From: Neptunomonas sp.
Lineage (GTDB): Bacteria; Pseudomonadota; Gammaproteobacteria; Pseudomonadales; Balneatricaceae
Direction: 5' to 3'
Assembly: GCF_016744175.1 (NCBI RefSeq)
Contig: NZ_JADGEV010000044.1
Coordinates: 1-35,150 of the forward strand
Length of the DNA stretch: 35,150 bases
This document shows positions 15,332 to 22,660 of this stretch, in pieces (positions within the stretch are counted from its first letter, which is position 1; each line of letters begins with the position of its first letter). The notes beneath the pieces were generated by a model. That model did not search any database. It was not told the DNA's origin and was given only the letters and a program-made list of their open reading frames with translations. The position numbers were made by a program, and so were the translations under genes.

Positions 15332-16630
15332 TTAGTAAGAGTTTGCTAAATGATCGATCGGTTTTTTAGCTGCAGATTCGTGTCGCTCTACTCTTGTTGT
15401 GTGTAAGTATTGAGATGTGGTGTTGATGCTGTCATGGCCGGCATCTGCTTGAACATGTGACAGAGGTCGATTGTTAATATTTATATCGTGTGATATTCCG
15501 GTATGACGAATGCTATGTGGTGTCATTTGCCGCATTTCGACGGCGTCTTGCTCAAAGCCATCTTTGTTCGCTGCATTAGCTGCTAGATCAAAAACTAAGC
15601 TGATCTGTTCTCGTAGCTGGCGAATACCCAAGTTGGCATTTAATAAACCGACGTCACGGCCACGTCCTGCTGCGCGGTGTCGAATAAATAGTGGCGTGTT
15701 TTCATTAGGTGCTGGTAATGGACTTAAGCCAAGAAAACAGCGATATCTTTTTAACGCTTTAAGTAGTTGGCTTGACACAGCAACCGTTCTTTTTTTGCCG
15801 CCTTTACTGCGTGGAATATGAAATCCCCAGACTGATGTTTTAGTGTCTCGACGAAATTGTCCCATCATTGGTGAAAACCCAGGACGTGCAGCTGCTTCTG
15901 AAATACGTAAATAACAGCTGTACATTAAGCTCATTAAAAACAGGGTGCGTTCGTGTGTTTCTGGGTCAGATTCAGCCAGCTTAATGGATGTGGATATGAC
16001 GTAAGACCACTGTAGCTGTGTAAATGAGCGAACGTCTTCATCATCTTCATTCATTACTAAGTTTTGTGAACTCGACTTAAAGCGTCCACTTTTCATCAGC
16101 ATCATAGCGGGGTTTCTTTCTGTATATTCCTCATTTATAAGGTAACTAAAAAATGAAGATAGAATAGCTAATTTTGTTTTTATTGCTTTATCTGTGATTT
16201 TGTAAGGCTGTTCTATGCCCTCCTTTTTTTTACCTAAAAATGGGCGCCATTGTTCGTTCGGAATTCGTTCATCGATATCTTTATCTAATAAGAACTGGGC
16301 GACATTTCGGTAGGCAATCAGATGTTTTGGTGGTTTTATGCAATAGTCGATATAGCGTAATAGTACTCGCCGCGTAATATCTGAAACGCTAACGCCTTCT
16401 TCTATAAAGCTCCAATAAAGAAATGTGGTTAATTCACTTCTATAAGTTTTATAGTTATTCTCACTATGTCTTTGTTCTAGTAGCCAATCTACTGCATGTT
16501 CGTATATTAATGCTGCATCGTTAACCTGATACATTGTAATGTTTGCAATGAACTGGTTAATGCTAGGGTTCCCATCTTCAAGATGGATAATAGAGTCAAA
16601 CAAAGGTAAAGCAGGTGGTTGATTTGGCAT
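15332..16630 (-). CDS. Tyrosine recombinase / site-specific integrase
   Basis: 432 residues from ATG 16630 (a GTG at 16639 would add three). An N-terminal SAM-like, DNA-arm-binding part spans about residues 35-180. The catalytic domain has all expected residues: Arg242 (SCYLRISEA), Lys275 (RSKGGKKR), His371 and Arg374 (TPHSIRHTG), His398 (AGHDS) and Tyr407 (TSQYLHTT). It should cut and rejoin DNA by a covalent phosphotyrosine. It is not next to a tRNA or excisionase gene, so it is not an obvious phage or island integrase. Chromosomal solitary recombinases of this size are common in gammaproteobacteria. It borders the AT-rich region 11.5-15.3 kb. Confidence 0.88.
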   Translation of the reverse strand: MPNQPPALPLFDSIIHLEDGNPSINQFIANITMYQVNDAALIYEHAVDWLLEQRHSENNYKTYRSELTTFLYWSFIEEGVSVSDITRRVLLRYIDYCIKPPKHLIAYRNVAQFLLDKDIDERIPNEQWRPFLGKKKEGIEQPYKITDKAIKTKLAILSSFFSYLINEEYTERNPAMMLMKSGRFKSSSQNLVMNEDDEDVRSFTQLQWSYVISTSIKLAESDPETHERTLFLMSLMYSCYLRISEAAARPGFSPMMGQFRRDTKTSVWGFHIPRSKGGKKRTVAVSSQLLKALKRYRCFLGLSPLPAPNENTPLFIRHRAAGRGRDVGLLNANLGIRQLREQISLVFDLAANAANKDGFEQDAVEMRQMTPHSIRHTGISHDININNRPLSHVQADAGHDSINTTSQYLHTTRVERHESAAKKPIDHLANSY

Positions 16631-16687
16631 TGATTTCACGTTGATATTATTTCAACTAGTATAGCAATAACAATGCCTTATATGCGA

Positions 16688-17039: not shown

Positions 17040-17768
17040 TTATTCATTTTTTTGTATCGTAGGACCACAAAGGTATTTACAAACAAGCTCTTCCAAAACG
17101 CCCTGTTTATCTAGTCTATCTATACTTGCGTTCATATCGGCCAATTTATCTTTAATTTTACTGTTTACCCGAAACGATACAGGGTTGCTTGCATATGGCA
17201 GAGAGGTTTCATAATTTAGATTTTCTTCTCGTTGATAGTAAAGCGCAACAGCCTCTTTCATTAAACCAATGTTGTTCCATCCACGATGTACACGTTGTGC
17301 TATCTGCCACTGATTGGTGAAGTCTTCACGTATTAAGCTATCAGGTACTGTGTTTCCTCGAACTGTAGCAACTCGCTGCCCTGCTAGATCTTTAAGAATA
17401 AATACGGGAAAGGAGAGTTCTGGACGATAGATAATTACTTCATTAACAACACTAAATGAACGCGTAAATAACGATACTTTTTTAATTTGGGGTCTATCAT
17501 CAATGTTTGCAGATACTCCCATTTCAATATCAATCTCACCTATTTCAAAATATCGGCGTAGTCGCTCTTGAGATAAAGGTTCAAATGATAAGTTAAATTT
17601 CAAGTCATTCGCTATTAAACGTAATGTGTCAGGGTAAATCCCTTGATACTCCCCTGCTTTATCTTGCCAGAAAAATGGTATCTGCCCTGGTGTTGGCACC
17701 CCTACGCGTAATACCTCCGCTATGCTTATGTTGCTGAGCATCAATAAATATATACCTATTGTTTTCAT
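17040..17768 (-). CDS. Periplasmic solute-binding protein, amino-acid family 3
   Basis: 242 residues with an N-terminal signal peptide (MKTIGIYLLMLSNISIA). The mature protein has the SBP_bac_3 layout: VLRVGVPTPGQIPFFW at the start, then EYQGIYPDTLRLIANDL, then a second lobe beginning LKDLAGQRVATVRGNT. Such proteins bind amino acids or similar small ligands in the periplasm. No ABC permease or ATPase is near, so it may be an orphan binding protein or a sensor. It is divergent from the AraC fusion gene over 158 bp, a setting typical for a regulator and its target, so it may be controlled by that regulator. Confidence 0.82.
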   Translation of the reverse strand: MKTIGIYLLMLSNISIAEVLRVGVPTPGQIPFFWQDKAGEYQGIYPDTLRLIANDLKFNLSFEPLSQERLRRYFEIGEIDIEMGVSANIDDRPQIKKVSLFTRSFSVVNEVIIYRPELSFPVFILKDLAGQRVATVRGNTVPDSLIREDFTNQWQIAQRVHRGWNNIGLMKEAVALYYQREENLNYETSLPYASNPVSFRVNSKIKDKLADMNASIDRLDKQGVLEELVCKYLCGPTIQKNE

Positions 17769-17926
17769 AAAGAATACTTTATAGCGCTAACCTTGCTAAG
17801 AATAATAAGAATTGGATATTCAAATGGCACATAAGGACAACTTTTAATGTGCTCTATGCTAATCTTTGTTCCATAATATCTTACTCTGTGTAAATAAAAG
17901 ACTCTTTTCATGCCAGTGATACGTAT

Positions 17927-20900
17927 ATGTCAGTTGTAACTGCTTCTGCAAAGCTATTAGAGCCAGTCTTGCAGATGGCTCAACATTATCGCATGGAGCC
18001 ATCCCAGGTACTCAATTGTGTACATCTAACTTATGATGAGTTCACAAAACCCGGTGCCCGCTTTCCTGCTTCGCGCTTTAATCTTGTTTTACAAGCGTTA
18101 GCCGAGATATCGAATAACCCACTTATTGCACTAAACCTTGGTGAAGCTACTCAGCCTCGTTTGCTCGGATCAATTGGTTTTCTTATATCAACAGCGCCGA
18201 CGTTAGATAAGGCTTACCAAACACTTGTTGACTACTTCCCTCTTCTTTTTGAGGGCGCTGTATTACACATGGAGCAAACAATAGAAGGCACGTTACTTAC
18301 AATTGAAATGAACTCACCGGAGCTACATCCCATTGAGTACTTTCTTGCTTGTTTGGTTAATTGGCCACGATCCTTAACAGGTCAGCAGGTCCCCGTTAAT
18401 TTTGTCCGTTTCACTTTTTCAGAACCTGAGAACCCACAATCTTATCAGAGATTTTTTGCTGCCGAAGTAGAGTTTGATGCCGCTTGTAATCAGATTTTAT
18501 TACCTAGCCAGTATCTTGCTCATAGTTGCTTAGATGCAAATGAAGAGATGCATCAATTACACCGTGAATTTGCTGACTCGCTTTTAAGCAAATCTAACCA
18601 ACAAAGTGCCCTAATTGCACAGACACGGCATCTAATACGACAGCAACTAAATGAAGGAGGAGGAACGGTTCGTCGTGAGCAAGTTGCCGCCTGTGTTGGC
18701 TTGAGTCTACGGACGCTTCAACGAAAATTAGGCGCATTAGGTACGAACTTCCAAGATGTATATGATCACACACGAAAAGAGATAAGTTTACAACATATAC
18801 AACGTGGGCAATTAAGCTTCGGTGAAATAGCATTTCAGCTTGGTTTTTCTAATCAATCGGCATTTCAAAAAGCATTTAAACGCTGGATGGGCCTTGCTCC
18901 AAGCTCGTATCGTCAACAAATTAATCCGGCCGTTTTACCTCAGAACATTATACTACCTCCCTCAAAACCAACTAATACGGCGTGGCTAGAATTCGATAAT
19001 ATTCAGGATGAAATAAAGCAGCGTATAATAGGGCTTAATGGTTTTAATTTGCAGCTTCTTGAGTATGCAGCCCTCTTTGGAGAACGGTTTACTCTCGCAG
19101 AATTAAGTAAAGCGACCGATAACCCCGTAGCACGTATAGCAATACACCTTTGGCCTGCAGAACAGCTAGGGCTTATCACTTCCATATCATTGCTACAAAA
19201 TGAAAGTAACTCTGACCAAGATGAAAAGACAGCTTATGTTTTTTCTCATATTGACATTCGTCACACCTTAAATGAGTGCATGACAGATACAGATAAAGCT
19301 CAACGCCACTTGAGCATTGGTGAAGTGATGTTTGATGCGCTTCCTTCCCCATTTTCACTTGATCAAATAAAGCCTGTTCTTGCACATCTTAATGACGGAG
19401 CAAAGTTATTAAAAAATGTGCTTTCATCAAATATAGACATACCTAGAAAGCTCAAAGCATTAAACATTCAAGCAGCTTTACTTGCAGAATCACAGCAGGA
19501 GTATTTGTATGCACAAGACTGCTTTAAACAGGCATATTACCTCCTCCCTGATGAGCAACATGATGAGAAATCAAAACTCTTATTGGAAAGTGTTCGGTTG
19601 CTGTTGTTAGGAGGCAGAATAGATCGTGCTCAAGAATATTTAACTAGAATCCCTACATCTACTAATCTTGAACAAGTGATTGTTGCGGGGTTGATGCAAG
19701 CAAAAATCTATCAACATAAAGGGTTACATACTGAGTCATTAACACATTTGCAGCATAGCCTAGCAGCCTTAGATCCAGCATTTCCAGATAATGAAACGGA
19801 GCAGTTATCTTTACTACTGACTCAGCTGCATGAGATAAGTGATCTTTTTGATGCCTCATTGATCACGAGCATCCCACAAATGCATGATCAAAAGAACCTA
19901 TTACGTTTGCAGCTATTAGAACAAATTAGTTTGTTAGCACGTCAACAACGCCAGCCTTTACTTGCCGCCTGTGCTATCAGTCAAATGGCTTTGCTTACTA
20001 TTAAATATGGTCATAGTTCACTAACCGCTTTTTCTTTTGTTAGCTACGCATGGGTTGCTAGTTGGTTTTGTGCTGATTTTGCTTTGGCACAGGATTTTTC
20101 AGAACAAGGTATGGAACTTGCCACTGGATTTAGAAAGCCGACTTTACTTGTAAATAACACAGAGCCAAATATTAAAGACAAGTCTTCACTAAGTGCTGTG
20201 CTTTTTCAAAGTAGCCAGGTGCTACATTGGTTTACTCCTTTGGAAGTAGCCATGTCACAATTACAGAGTGTTGATGATCTTGCAACTGCACATAGCCAAT
20301 GGTTAATACAGAGTGATTGTCGAGTATTACGTCACCAGTTGATGTTTTTTTCTGCTATGCCATTGACTGAGCAATCTATGCTTTGCCAAGAAAGTCACGC
20401 AAGTATGGTAAGTCAAAGGCAGACATATCAAGCGGCATGCTTAGCAGAATCTACTCAGCTATTGCTTCTGCAATTATGCTCAAGTACCGAACCCCATAGC
20501 ACGGTGACATATAGGCATGGCTGGCAAGCGGTTAGTACGATTATAGGAGCGTTATTATTAGACCAGCAATCAGTATGGCCTGACTTGTTCGCATGGGAAG
20601 CTTCACTTGAAAATGAACTTGCTGGTTATTTCTGTGTGGCTGAAGCTTTATTTTGCACGGCAATGATGCGATTAATACAATCTCAGCAACAACATAATAT
20701 GGGTAGAAAACGCCGATTAGAAATTGAACAAATTGAATCACGACTAGAACTTTGGGCAAGACATTGTCCCGCAAATTTCAAAGGACAATTGTTGTTACTC
20801 CAAGCAGAAAAATCTAGGTTATTAACCCGGCAATCCCCCAATAACAGCAATAGTACCGATCCAGCAGTGTTATTTGAGCAAGCAATTAAAGAAACAGAAA

Positions 20901-21082
20901 TACATGAATTTGGATACCACAAAGCGCTTTGTTATGAGCGATATGCAGATTATTTGCACGCTCAAGGCCATGTTATACTTGCTCGGTTTTGTTTAAACGA
21001 ATCCAGCTATCTATATCAACGCTGGGGGGCATCAGCTAAAGTGGAACAGCTAAGACAAGCGTATGCTTTACTGGCAATATAA
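17927..21082 (+). CDS. AraC-family regulator fused to a large ATPase-associated-type helical module
   Basis: 1051 residues, three times the usual AraC length. Residues 1-235 match the arabinose-binding-like domain of the OruR/ArgR type (FPASRFNLVLQALAEISNNPLIALNLG, LLGSIGFLISTAPTLDKAYQ). Residues about 240-330 are the AraC HTH pair (VGLSLRTLQRKL and FGEIAFQLGFSNQSAFQKAFKRW). From about 360 a winged-helix-like part follows (LLEYAALFGERFTLAELSKA), then FSHIDIRHTL and HLSIGEVMFDAL, then a long TPR-like helical array. This order is that of the region after the NTPase in PknB/AAA_16 sensor kinases, but no P-loop is present. Inferred: a transcription factor with a protein-interaction arm. No signal peptide or membrane helix. 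A response regulator follows after 51 bp. Confidence 0.8.
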   Translation: MSVVTASAKLLEPVLQMAQHYRMEPSQVLNCVHLTYDEFTKPGARFPASRFNLVLQALAEISNNPLIALNLGEATQPRLLGSIGFLISTAPTLDKAYQTLVDYFPLLFEGAVLHMEQTIEGTLLTIEMNSPELHPIEYFLACLVNWPRSLTGQQVPVNFVRFTFSEPENPQSYQRFFAAEVEFDAACNQILLPSQYLAHSCLDANEEMHQLHREFADSLLSKSNQQSALIAQTRHLIRQQLNEGGGTVRREQVAACVGLSLRTLQRKLGALGTNFQDVYDHTRKEISLQHIQRGQLSFGEIAFQLGFSNQSAFQKAFKRWMGLAPSSYRQQINPAVLPQNIILPPSKPTNTAWLEFDNIQDEIKQRIIGLNGFNLQLLEYAALFGERFTLAELSKATDNPVARIAIHLWPAEQLGLITSISLLQNESNSDQDEKTAYVFSHIDIRHTLNECMTDTDKAQRHLSIGEVMFDALPSPFSLDQIKPVLAHLNDGAKLLKNVLSSNIDIPRKLKALNIQAALLAESQQEYLYAQDCFKQAYYLLPDEQHDEKSKLLLESVRLLLLGGRIDRAQEYLTRIPTSTNLEQVIVAGLMQAKIYQHKGLHTESLTHLQHSLAALDPAFPDNETEQLSLLLTQLHEISDLFDASLITSIPQMHDQKNLLRLQLLEQISLLARQQRQPLLAACAISQMALLTIKYGHSSLTAFSFVSYAWVASWFCADFALAQDFSEQGMELATGFRKPTLLVNNTEPNIKDKSSLSAVLFQSSQVLHWFTPLEVAMSQLQSVDDLATAHSQWLIQSDCRVLRHQLMFFSAMPLTEQSMLCQESHASMVSQRQTYQAACLAESTQLLLLQLCSSTEPHSTVTYRHGWQAVSTIIGALLLDQQSVWPDLFAWEASLENELAGYFCVAEALFCTAMMRLIQSQQQHNMGRKRRLEIEQIESRLELWARHCPANFKGQLLLLQAEKSRLLTRQSPNNSNSTDPAVLFEQAIKETEIHEFGYHKALCYERYADYLHAQGHVILARFCLNESSYLYQRWGASAKVEQLRQAYALLAI

Positions 21083-21133
21083 CGCTTATAATTAATAGCT
21101 CTCAATCTAATAATAAACAGTGATTAATCAATT

Positions 21134-22180
21134 ATGGTTCCATGGAAAGTGCTAGTTGTCGATGATGAAGAAGGCATTCACGGTATAACCCGGATGGTAT
21201 TTCGTGGCTATGAGTTTGAGCAGCGGCCAATTGAACTGATTAGTGCGATGAGCGGCAATGAAGCACGTGAACTTTTAATTCAACATCCTGATATAGCATT
21301 GGCATTACTCGATGTTGTTATGGAGACAGATAGCGAGGGTTTGCAACTAGTTGAACATATTCGAGACGGGATGAATAATCGCGATATACGGATTATCTTA
21401 CGTACAGGCCATCCTGGATATGCTCCTGAAGCTCAGGTAATTGTTAACTATGATATCAACGATTATTTAAGCAAAGCAGAGCTGTCGGCTTCGCGATTGT
21501 TAACCTCTGTGGTTGTTGGGCTACGGTCGTATAGAGACATAAAAAGCGCTCGAAAAAGTCCTGTAAGCATGAACGACTCTACGCCTGCCAATCAAATAAC
21601 AGCAGAACAGCTGCATCAACAAATGCTGCCTTTGTTAAAACAAAGCTCACGTTTGCAGCAATTTGATCTGAACCCTGTAGCTCATGATATTACGGTTAAT
21701 TTACATGCACAGCACCAGCGACTCAGCAATAGTGTCAGCTTACTGAATCTTAGTGAGCAGTCTTTTAAACCAGAACTGATTGATCTTGCTGATTTACTTA
21801 ATGAAGTACTTCACATTTTTTTACCTCAAAGCCGACGTGAGGGTTGGATACTGGACTATCGATTGAATAATGATTCAGTAAATACTTTACCCGCGCAAAT
21901 TAAGTCCGATGCTATATACCTCAAACAACTGCTAATAAGTGCTGTTGAAGTGATGATTCTTTCATCAGATGGCAATGATTTAAAAATCACCGTCCAGCAA
22001 GCAAAGCAAACAGGTCATCTTATTTTAACGTTTGAGCAGAGTAGCGGCCTACCTGTTTTCACTGCTACTGATTGGTCAAATCTACTATTGGAATACCTTC
22101 AGCGCTTAAGTATTACTTTGCAAGCTGATCTTCTAGAAAGAGACGAAAACGGCACTATTCAATGCATAATGCCTTATTAA
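21134..22180 (+). CDS. Response regulator with a decayed histidine-kinase domain
   Basis: 348 residues. The receiver domain (about 1-140) has the acidic pair Asp10/Asp11, phosphoacceptor Asp60 in LLDVVMET, Thr91 and Lys114, so it should accept phosphate. The sequence is of the DUF3369-associated REC type (VVMETDSEGLQLV, IILRTGHPGYAPE, YDINDYLSKAEL), but the DUF3369 and HD-GYP domains are absent. The C-terminal half (about 215-348) resembles a kinase ATPase domain: DLADLLNEVLHIFLP, then SDAIYLKQLLISAVEVM. The N-box Asn is gone, no DxGxG motif is seen and no HExxT/P-type His is clear, so it is probably a pseudokinase. Likely co-transcribed with the AraC fusion upstream. Confidence 0.8.
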   Translation: MVPWKVLVVDDEEGIHGITRMVFRGYEFEQRPIELISAMSGNEARELLIQHPDIALALLDVVMETDSEGLQLVEHIRDGMNNRDIRIILRTGHPGYAPEAQVIVNYDINDYLSKAELSASRLLTSVVVGLRSYRDIKSARKSPVSMNDSTPANQITAEQLHQQMLPLLKQSSRLQQFDLNPVAHDITVNLHAQHQRLSNSVSLLNLSEQSFKPELIDLADLLNEVLHIFLPQSRREGWILDYRLNNDSVNTLPAQIKSDAIYLKQLLISAVEVMILSSDGNDLKITVQQAKQTGHLILTFEQSSGLPVFTATDWSNLLLEYLQRLSITLQADLLERDENGTIQCIMPY

Positions 22181-22201: not shown

Positions 22202-22660
22202 TTAATGTAATGCATGTGTTTGATAAGACCGCTGATGCAGCTTCATATTGAGCTGGCTATGCAATACATGCCCATGTGATGGTTCATCCATAAGTTGCTC
22301 TGCATAATCTAATGCTTGATTGGTTTTAATCTGTTCAGTTAGTTTGTTTTTAACCAAACAATTATAGGCGAAAATTAACACCATATCGGCATCCTCTTCT
22401 CTGCCCATATGGTGAAATACGTTAGATAAATACATAGCGGATAGCATCATTAATGAAAGCGACAAACGATTAAAGCCCCCCCTTTCTATTAACATATTGG
22501 CTATATCATAAGCACTTCCAACATAGGGCAAAACTTTTTCCCATTCTCTATCTTTGTAATGTTTTTCTGACTCTTGCATCCAGTGGAAACAGTAATTGAT
22601 GAGTTCATTCTCAGTAGCACTTGCATACTGGCTTCGATGTTTTGGGCAAATAAACTGCAT
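22202..22660 (-). CDS. Small helical TPR-like protein, unknown
   Basis: 152 residues, no signal or membrane helix. The start MQFICPKH is followed by alpha-helical, TPR-like pairs (NYCFHWMQESEKHYKDREW, LPYVGSAYDIANMLIERGG, MLSAMYLSNVFHHMGREEDA). Cys5 and His8 in the CPKH motif, with later Cys and His residues, could bind a metal. I recall similar orphan proteins in marine gammaproteobacteria but know no function. AAGAGG precedes the ATG. It converges with the response-regulator gene, 21 bp apart. It may belong to the same signalling unit as a partner, but nothing shows this directly. Confidence 0.65.
   Translation of the reverse strand: MQFICPKHRSQYASATENELINYCFHWMQESEKHYKDREWEKVLPYVGSAYDIANMLIERGGFNRLSLSLMMLSAMYLSNVFHHMGREEDADMVLIFAYNCLVKNKLTEQIKTNQALDYAEQLMDEPSHGHVLHSQLNMKLHQRSYQTHALH

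Follow-up and report, generated by a model that had tools for sequence, protein, structure and literature searches.

What can the sensory arm of an ATPase-bearing sensor kinase do once the ATPase is gone? This question is raised by two adjoining genes of Neptunomonas sp., a member of the Balneatricaceae, that lie in a window of 35,150 nucleotides (contig NZ_JADGEV010000044.1 of assembly GCF_016744175.1, positions 1 to 35,150), the window being one contig of a 4.2 Mb genome. The upstream open reading frame (ORF; 17927–21082, forward strand) encodes a 1051-residue fusion of an AraC-type regulator with a long arm, and the downstream ORF (21134–22180, forward strand) encodes a 348-residue receiver protein; both frames hold at the positions where they were first called. 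The account favoured here, to which a probability of roughly 0.6 is given, is that the fusion is a transcription factor derived from the signal transduction ATPases with numerous domains (STAND) but devoid of their ATPase, and that its arm serves as a docking platform for the receiver and so gates the AraC half.

The fusion protein and its arm

Residues 1–331 of the fusion (17927–18919, +) constitute a complete AraC regulator, in which Pfam places an Arabinose_bd domain at residues 24–199 (E 6.5e-31) and an HTH_18 domain at residues 254–331 (E 4.3e-17; 62.6 bits against a cut-off of 33.6). The best NCBIfam models for this half are QhpR and GliR, both of which score below their cut-offs; for the QhpR equivalog the score is 197.7 bits against a cut-off of 250, which places the protein outside that equivalog. 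The fusion is like these AraC/XylS regulators over residues 1–331 but is three times as long, and its AraC part is presumably of the OruR type. Beyond residue 331, no Pfam family is found above cut-off, the best being TPR_CHK1 at a sub-threshold E of 0.0095, and no protein-kinase domain is detected in the fusion by Pfam. Moreover, the P-loop pattern GxxxxGK[ST] is absent from all 1051 residues, as it is from every other short form of the fusion, by which we mean relatives of similar length (31 of them complete). The fusion of Neptunomonas japonica is equal in length to that of the window, with 71% identity. An assembly or gene-calling artefact can be ruled out as the source of the fusion, since the same architecture is repeated in 37 genomes.

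The remainder of the protein, residues 357–1051 (18995–21082, +), is a winged-helix and TPR-like arm, for which the clearest evidence is a profile-profile comparison (hhalign) between the arms of 20 short forms and those of 36 sensor kinases with PknB and AAA_16 domains. The two profiles align with a probability of 100 and an E of 1.7e-66 over 660 columns, corresponding to residues 356–1045 of the window protein, and a control with reversed kinase arms yielded an E of 0.031 and a probability of 1.6. The alignment starts at the winged-helix position behind the NTPase, from which position, rather than from a solved structure, the name of that part is taken, and it stops at the end of the arm. 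In this comparison and in the sequence alignments the protein ends where the arm ends, so the C-terminal histidine kinase output is absent from the fusion. Single sequences point in the same direction. For example, residues 364–718 match the arm of a 2118-residue kinase encoded in the same genome (E 5.6e-10), as do residues 938–1048 at an E of 0.2; the Pfam domains of that kinase are Pkinase, AAA_16, TPR_12 (below cut-off), GAF, PAS, HisKA, HATPase, receiver, and Hpt. In a tblastn search of plasmid records with the window protein, the top plasmid match among the matches listed was a Nostoc "serine/threonine protein kinase with two-component sensor domain" (residues 376–1046, E 1e-27), and none of the plasmid records covers 80% of the fusion in one place. 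A Foldseek search with the arm model found mostly TPR superhelices; this model is of low confidence (mean predicted local distance difference test, pLDDT, 52.5), and since the predictions used three sequences and gave poor models, Foldseek matches are taken here as supporting evidence only.

The fusion is thereby confirmed as a complete AraC regulator followed by some 690 residues, which line up in order with the winged-helix/TPR arm of PknB-AAA_16 sensor kinases. A sequence-only reading of the window had anticipated as much, having called a complete AraC regulator over residues 1–330, about 700 residues in the order of such an arm, and no visible Walker A or B motif, all of which are borne out. 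With the PknB/AAA_16/TPR/GAF/HisKA kinases, such as those of Nostoc and the 2118-residue kinase, the fusion shares the arm over ~660–690 collinear residues; it differs from them in having an AraC regulator in place of the kinase N-lobe and no GAF, histidine kinase, or receiver past the arm, and its short forms are without any kinase or NTPase.

The 2118-residue hybrid kinase lies on another contig of the genome (C50; L042:880-12842), where it and a 241-residue regulator-like ORF adjoin genes for a quinohemoprotein amine dehydrogenase (alpha, beta, and a radical-SAM maturase). QhpR, the best-scoring model for the AraC half, takes its name from that dehydrogenase system.

Long relatives and the direction of change

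Four of the 37 fusions, those of Marinobacterium jannaschii (L045) and of loci L076, L077, and L078, are longer, at 1458–1542 residues. The M. jannaschii protein, of 1458 residues, has an AAA_16 domain at residues 552–708 that includes the sequence GGSGSGKT. In L077, Pfam finds AAA_16 at residues 550–735 and, ahead of it, Pkinase at residues 339–507, which correspond to profile positions 75–258 of 263, i.e., to a kinase whose N-lobe is missing. A strict Walker A pattern occurs in three of the four long forms (L077 reads APAGMGKS) and a Walker B-like strand in all four. L077 aligns in a single unbroken stretch with the 2118-residue kinase of the window's genome (residues 364–1503, E 5e-129) and, over residues 339–1499, with a sensor kinase of another family genome (E 6.6e-144); the kinase remnants of L045 and L078 are evidenced by alignments. 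AAA_16 and the kinase remnant are thus common to the PknB/AAA_16 kinases and the long fusions, and the short forms are without the stretch between the HTH linker and the winged helix, its site in the window protein being the linker of residues 332–356 (18920–18994, +).

Because the long forms are collinear with the kinases, it follows that an AraC gene was fused to part of a sensor-kinase gene, in place of the kinase N-lobe and with the GAF/histidine-kinase output absent. That the fusion stems from an ATPase-sensor kinase, as the sequence-only reading had proposed for both genes of the pair, is upheld for the fusion by these intermediates, which keep AAA_16 and the kinase remnant in the very place where the short forms have nothing. 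An intact NTPase in the window fusion would have counted against that reading; none is present there, and AAA_16 is present in the four long relatives.

The order of events was followed in two trees, from both of which L093 (on the same contig as L044), L098 (broken), and L105 (ending at a contig edge) were dropped. With 10 free-standing AraC proteins as the root, a tree of the AraC part sets all 31 short forms apart by a single branch (support 77/95.6) and places the long forms near the base. In the arm tree, for which 36 kinase arms served as the root, L076/L077 split first, followed by L045 and L078, and the short rows, 22 in number, come together in a single clade (SH-aLRT 99); rows that the cutting motif missed are absent from it (L087, L100, L101, L103, L104, and L106–L109), including all five usable g128 rows. 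Since the long forms fall outside the tested short forms, the branch leading to the window protein has, as read from these trees, lost the kinase remnant and AAA_16, leaving AraC, winged helix, and TPR arm, and a single loss is the simplest, if not a proven, reading. The long form is taken as ancestral mainly because of its collinearity with the kinases. Several points weigh against this order of events: a single clade of long forms is not rejected by the AraC tree (p-AU 0.42), in which the short-form branch is not starred; the arm tree was built by a quick method, with long branches for L045 and L078, nine short arms left out, and two mis-cut; and Pfam scores the kinase remnant above its cut-off in L077 alone, with a sub-threshold match in L076 and none in L045 or L078.

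The receiver gene and its surroundings

The receiver domain occupies residues 1–136 of the downstream product (21134–21541, +), with a Pfam Response_reg match at residues 6–123 (E 4.8e-9). It is strongly conserved in an alignment of 37 members, all 37 of which keep the phospho-acceptor Asp, Thr, and Lys motifs (D60, T91, and K114, in LLDVVM or ILDVVM, LRTGHPG, and DYLSK or DYLGK, respectively). The other part, residues 137–348 (21542–22180, +), is DHp/HATPase-like. None of 34 members scanned has a HisKA or HATPase_c match in this half, and the same scan found 12 unrelated families in one member each (best E 0.0013) and none in the window member. Its profile, on the other hand, matches histidine-kinase cores, namely 7n0e_B of the RetS-GacS co-complex (E 1.2e-6) and RetS 6dk7 (E 1.5e-6), and a Foldseek search with a low-confidence model (mean pLDDT 44.0) also leads to histidine kinases (E 9.5e-8). 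No H-box, N box, or G box is seen in the alignment of 37, as read by eye. Because the profile matches kinase cores while these boxes are not seen, the product is classed, from its sequence, as a receiver joined to a pseudokinase, in agreement with the earlier view of a partner kinase domain that has lost its ATP motifs. Relative to RetS, which its C-terminal half resembles in profile and fold, the pseudokinase part stands after the receiver, and the H-box and ATP motifs are not seen.

The receiver seems not to derive from the kinase that gave rise to the arm, since its nearest relatives in the genome are the receivers of two REC-DUF3369-GGDEF-EAL proteins (46–49% identity); the receiver of the 2118-residue hybrid kinase is not among the four own-genome matches found at E up to 10. 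One hybrid kinase as the common source of both genes is therefore rejected, and with it the second half of the proposal that both are rearranged pieces of one ancestral kinase. One of the two relatives, with a receiver 46% identical to that of the window, is encoded on contig C71 (L149:348-4945) beside an SBP_bac_3 protein and a histidine kinase, the latter matching CHASE5 weakly. There the output is of the cyclic di-GMP type and a membrane kinase is present, whereas here the receiver is followed by a pseudokinase; the receiver and solute-binding protein of the window could plausibly descend from an arrangement such as that on C71.

The two genes travel together. A family search found the fusion in 37 of 116 genomes, and a search with the second protein found 38 genomes in which the match, with an E of 3.3e-73 or better, extends beyond residue 250. 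These are the same 37 and one more (G343), on whose 7.2 kb contig the end of an arm lies just upstream of the receiver gene and the AraC half lies beyond the contig; the remaining family matches to the receiver protein stop by residue 205. In 34 of 36 loci measured, the receiver gene is directly downstream on the same strand at a spacing of −4 to 220 bases, which bears out the neighbourhood predicted at the outset. The exceptions are L096, with a 1.8 kb gap holding an opposite-strand ORF, and L098, with a broken fusion gene; the contig of L105 ends ahead of the receiver gene. Since the receiver gene adjoins all four long forms, it was probably present before the ATPase was lost. The receiver, which occurs in the same genomes, may be the functional partner of the fusion. 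In L098 (genome G309), the fusion is interrupted behind the AraC part with arm sequence still following; a sequencing error is possible, since the assembly is 78% complete.

The fusion was not met outside the family. An order search of 293 genomes with the window protein (E 1e-10) gave, among the matches listed, a full-length match only in G177 besides the own genome, and in searches with long forms (390, 369, and 398 genomes, E 1e-60) none of the listed matches from outside the family starts before query residue 320. The genome sets are overlapping samples, and most rows allowed no more than two scored candidates for each genome; absence of the fusion beyond the family is therefore not proven.

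Selection was gauged as the ratio of nonsynonymous to synonymous substitution rates (dN/dS) in eight chosen pairs, with pairs of finite dS counted for each part. The receiver is the most constrained part (0.016–0.041, six pairs), followed by the AraC part (0.02–0.08, seven pairs), and the arm (0.10–0.19, seven pairs) and pseudokinase part (0.07–0.23, seven pairs) are likewise under purifying selection, weaker than that on the AraC part and receiver. Conceivably, arm and pseudokinase could be decaying remnants without function, as the loss of the P-loop from the short forms and the unseen ATP motifs of the pseudokinase might suggest. Such decay is very improbable and is disfavoured here: both parts have lower ratios than the linker (0.19–0.76, four pairs), the 31 complete short forms keep to 1013–1122 residues, and a single fusion of 37 (L098) is visibly broken, L105 being merely cut by its contig end. 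Another possibility is that the AraC half senses and acts alone, with an arm that only oligomerises or restrains it and a receiver that acts elsewhere. This would suit an AraC part that is a complete regulator and whose dN/dS is below that of the other fusion half; moreover, a study on AfsR describes C-terminal NOD and TPR domains that inhibit, and so restrain, the DNA-binding SARP domain (PMC10936776). It would, however, leave unexplained why the receiver gene occurs in the same genomes and next to the fusion, and we consider it improbable.

Divergent from the fusion lies a gene for a periplasmic solute-binding protein (17040–17768, −; Pfam SBP_bac_3, E 1e-10), on which the sequence-only reading was silent. 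A solute-binding-protein gene is found in all 37 distinct loci (duplicate L093 not counted): a divergent homologue in 29; a different, co-directional SBP_bac_3 upstream in the seven where the divergent gene was not found (L080, L082, L083, L090, L092, L094, and L096; by blastp, with Pfam run on two of the seven), which is a replacement within the same module; and, in L078, an ABC_sub_bind gene behind the receiver gene. A gene for NAD-glutamate dehydrogenase also stands beside the pair. These neighbours hint at an amino-acid or amine signal, and it is conceivable that the arm binds a small molecule, as in MalT, which the AraC half then reads directly, the receiver gene being a separate, co-transcribed output; TPR sensors of STAND proteins do bind inducers (PMC4381067). 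An incidental receiver gene is nevertheless hard to square with its presence in the same genomes and with the strongest constraint in the locus, and this alternative appears unlikely, if less so than an AraC half acting alone.

Two further ORFs of the window deserve mention. A 152-residue ORF at 22202–22660 is 82–85% identical in L044 and L099, with no match in the ORFs of the other loci, which are short. At 15332–16639 lies a 435-residue recombinase of the Phage_integrase type, and N. japonica has an ORF of equal length (L044:5386-6693) in the same place beside the solute-binding gene.

Upstream of the fusion, a conserved 17-mer, TGGCACRNAAGGACATA, lies at 17825–17841 (+), with two mismatches in the window. 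It occurs within three mismatches in 27 of 36 upstream regions against 0.05 expected from mononucleotide shuffles, a count made in the very sequences that gave the consensus and including one locus (L107) where it is positioned elsewhere, probably by chance. A putative extended −10 element, TATGCTAATCT, lies at 17855–17865 (+); 13–14 bases past the 17-mer, TATGNTANTCT is found with up to two mismatches in 25 of those 27 loci. Further downstream, most loci carry CATGCCA, the second conserved element of the upstream region being TTTCATGCCA (17906–17915, +), an inverted TGGCATG half-site. In ten loci, the window included, the divergent frame closes within 22 codons and the 17-mer is still kept. 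Because the element stays where that frame is closed, it suggests a putative operator, and because it looks like an operator, autoregulation of the fusion seems likely. In two g128 loci, L106 and L108, a palindrome-like TGGCRCATTATAATG, read by eye, stands upstream of the fusion in place of the 17-mer. A wide regulon was rejected: the genome has a perfect 15-base core at 17825 only, plus six one-mismatch sites (two for the backward pattern). Of the six, four fall within ORFs, and the other two in no ORF of 100 residues or more. A sigma-54 promoter was likewise rejected, by eye: the −24 part fits, but there is no GC at −12.

An arm without its ATPase

In the docking account, the arm would no longer gate a nucleotide switch and would act instead as a platform for the receiver. 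The receiver would be phosphorylated by a membrane histidine kinase whose gene lies elsewhere and which may take its cue from the solute-binding protein. The receiver would then bind or leave the arm with the pseudokinase half as adaptor; the docking state would free or restrain the AraC half at its own promoter and at that of the divergent solute-binding-protein gene. A precedent for an arm that changes partners is MalT, whose arm switches between NOD and sensor (PMC4381067). More tentatively, and at less than even odds, it may be that an ATP/ADP switch was given up and that the phosphorylation of a separate receiver, docking on the old TPR arm, took its place, with living intermediates that keep both.

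A number of observations count against the docking account. The contact between arm and receiver is one that we infer, no membrane histidine kinase is seen in the cluster, and the AraC half's own N-terminal Arabinose_bd-family domain could be the sole sensor. The dN/dS ratios lean on an arm dS below 1 in three pairs only, most dS values being near saturation, and the other ratios are therefore rough. As for the promoter, the 17-mer in many loci takes in the start codon of the divergent gene, none of the four long forms has it, and it is not seen at the corresponding position in any of the five g128 loci examined.

STAND proteins, including MalT, AfsR, and the NLR immune receptors of eukaryotes, are defined by a nucleotide switch, and in PknK a kinase module is set on an NTPase-winged helix-TPR arm. 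The long fusions share with MalT and AfsR the layout of a DNA-binding module on such an arm. The fusion departs from MalT, AfsR, and PknK in that its DNA-binding part is of the AraC type and N-terminal, and the window protein has the winged helix, the TPR-type arm, and an effector domain at one end (AraC) but not the STAND-defining NOD with its Walker A and B motifs. In the portions of the open literature searched (PMC1262709 included), no description of an AraC regulator on a STAND arm was found. STAND-type transcription factors are already known; what is new, in our judgement, is one of the AraC type, and the shedding of an NTPase with living intermediates.

The family Balneatricaceae thus holds a natural series with like neighbours, in which the long forms have an AAA domain and the short forms have none. 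With this series it can be asked directly how an arm functions without its ATPase and if the role of the switch can pass to a phosphorylated receiver. The case also shows how a sensor kinase can become a transcription factor by fusion and deletion and, if the proposed mechanism is true, how a switch driven by a nucleotide gave way to one run by a two-component system.

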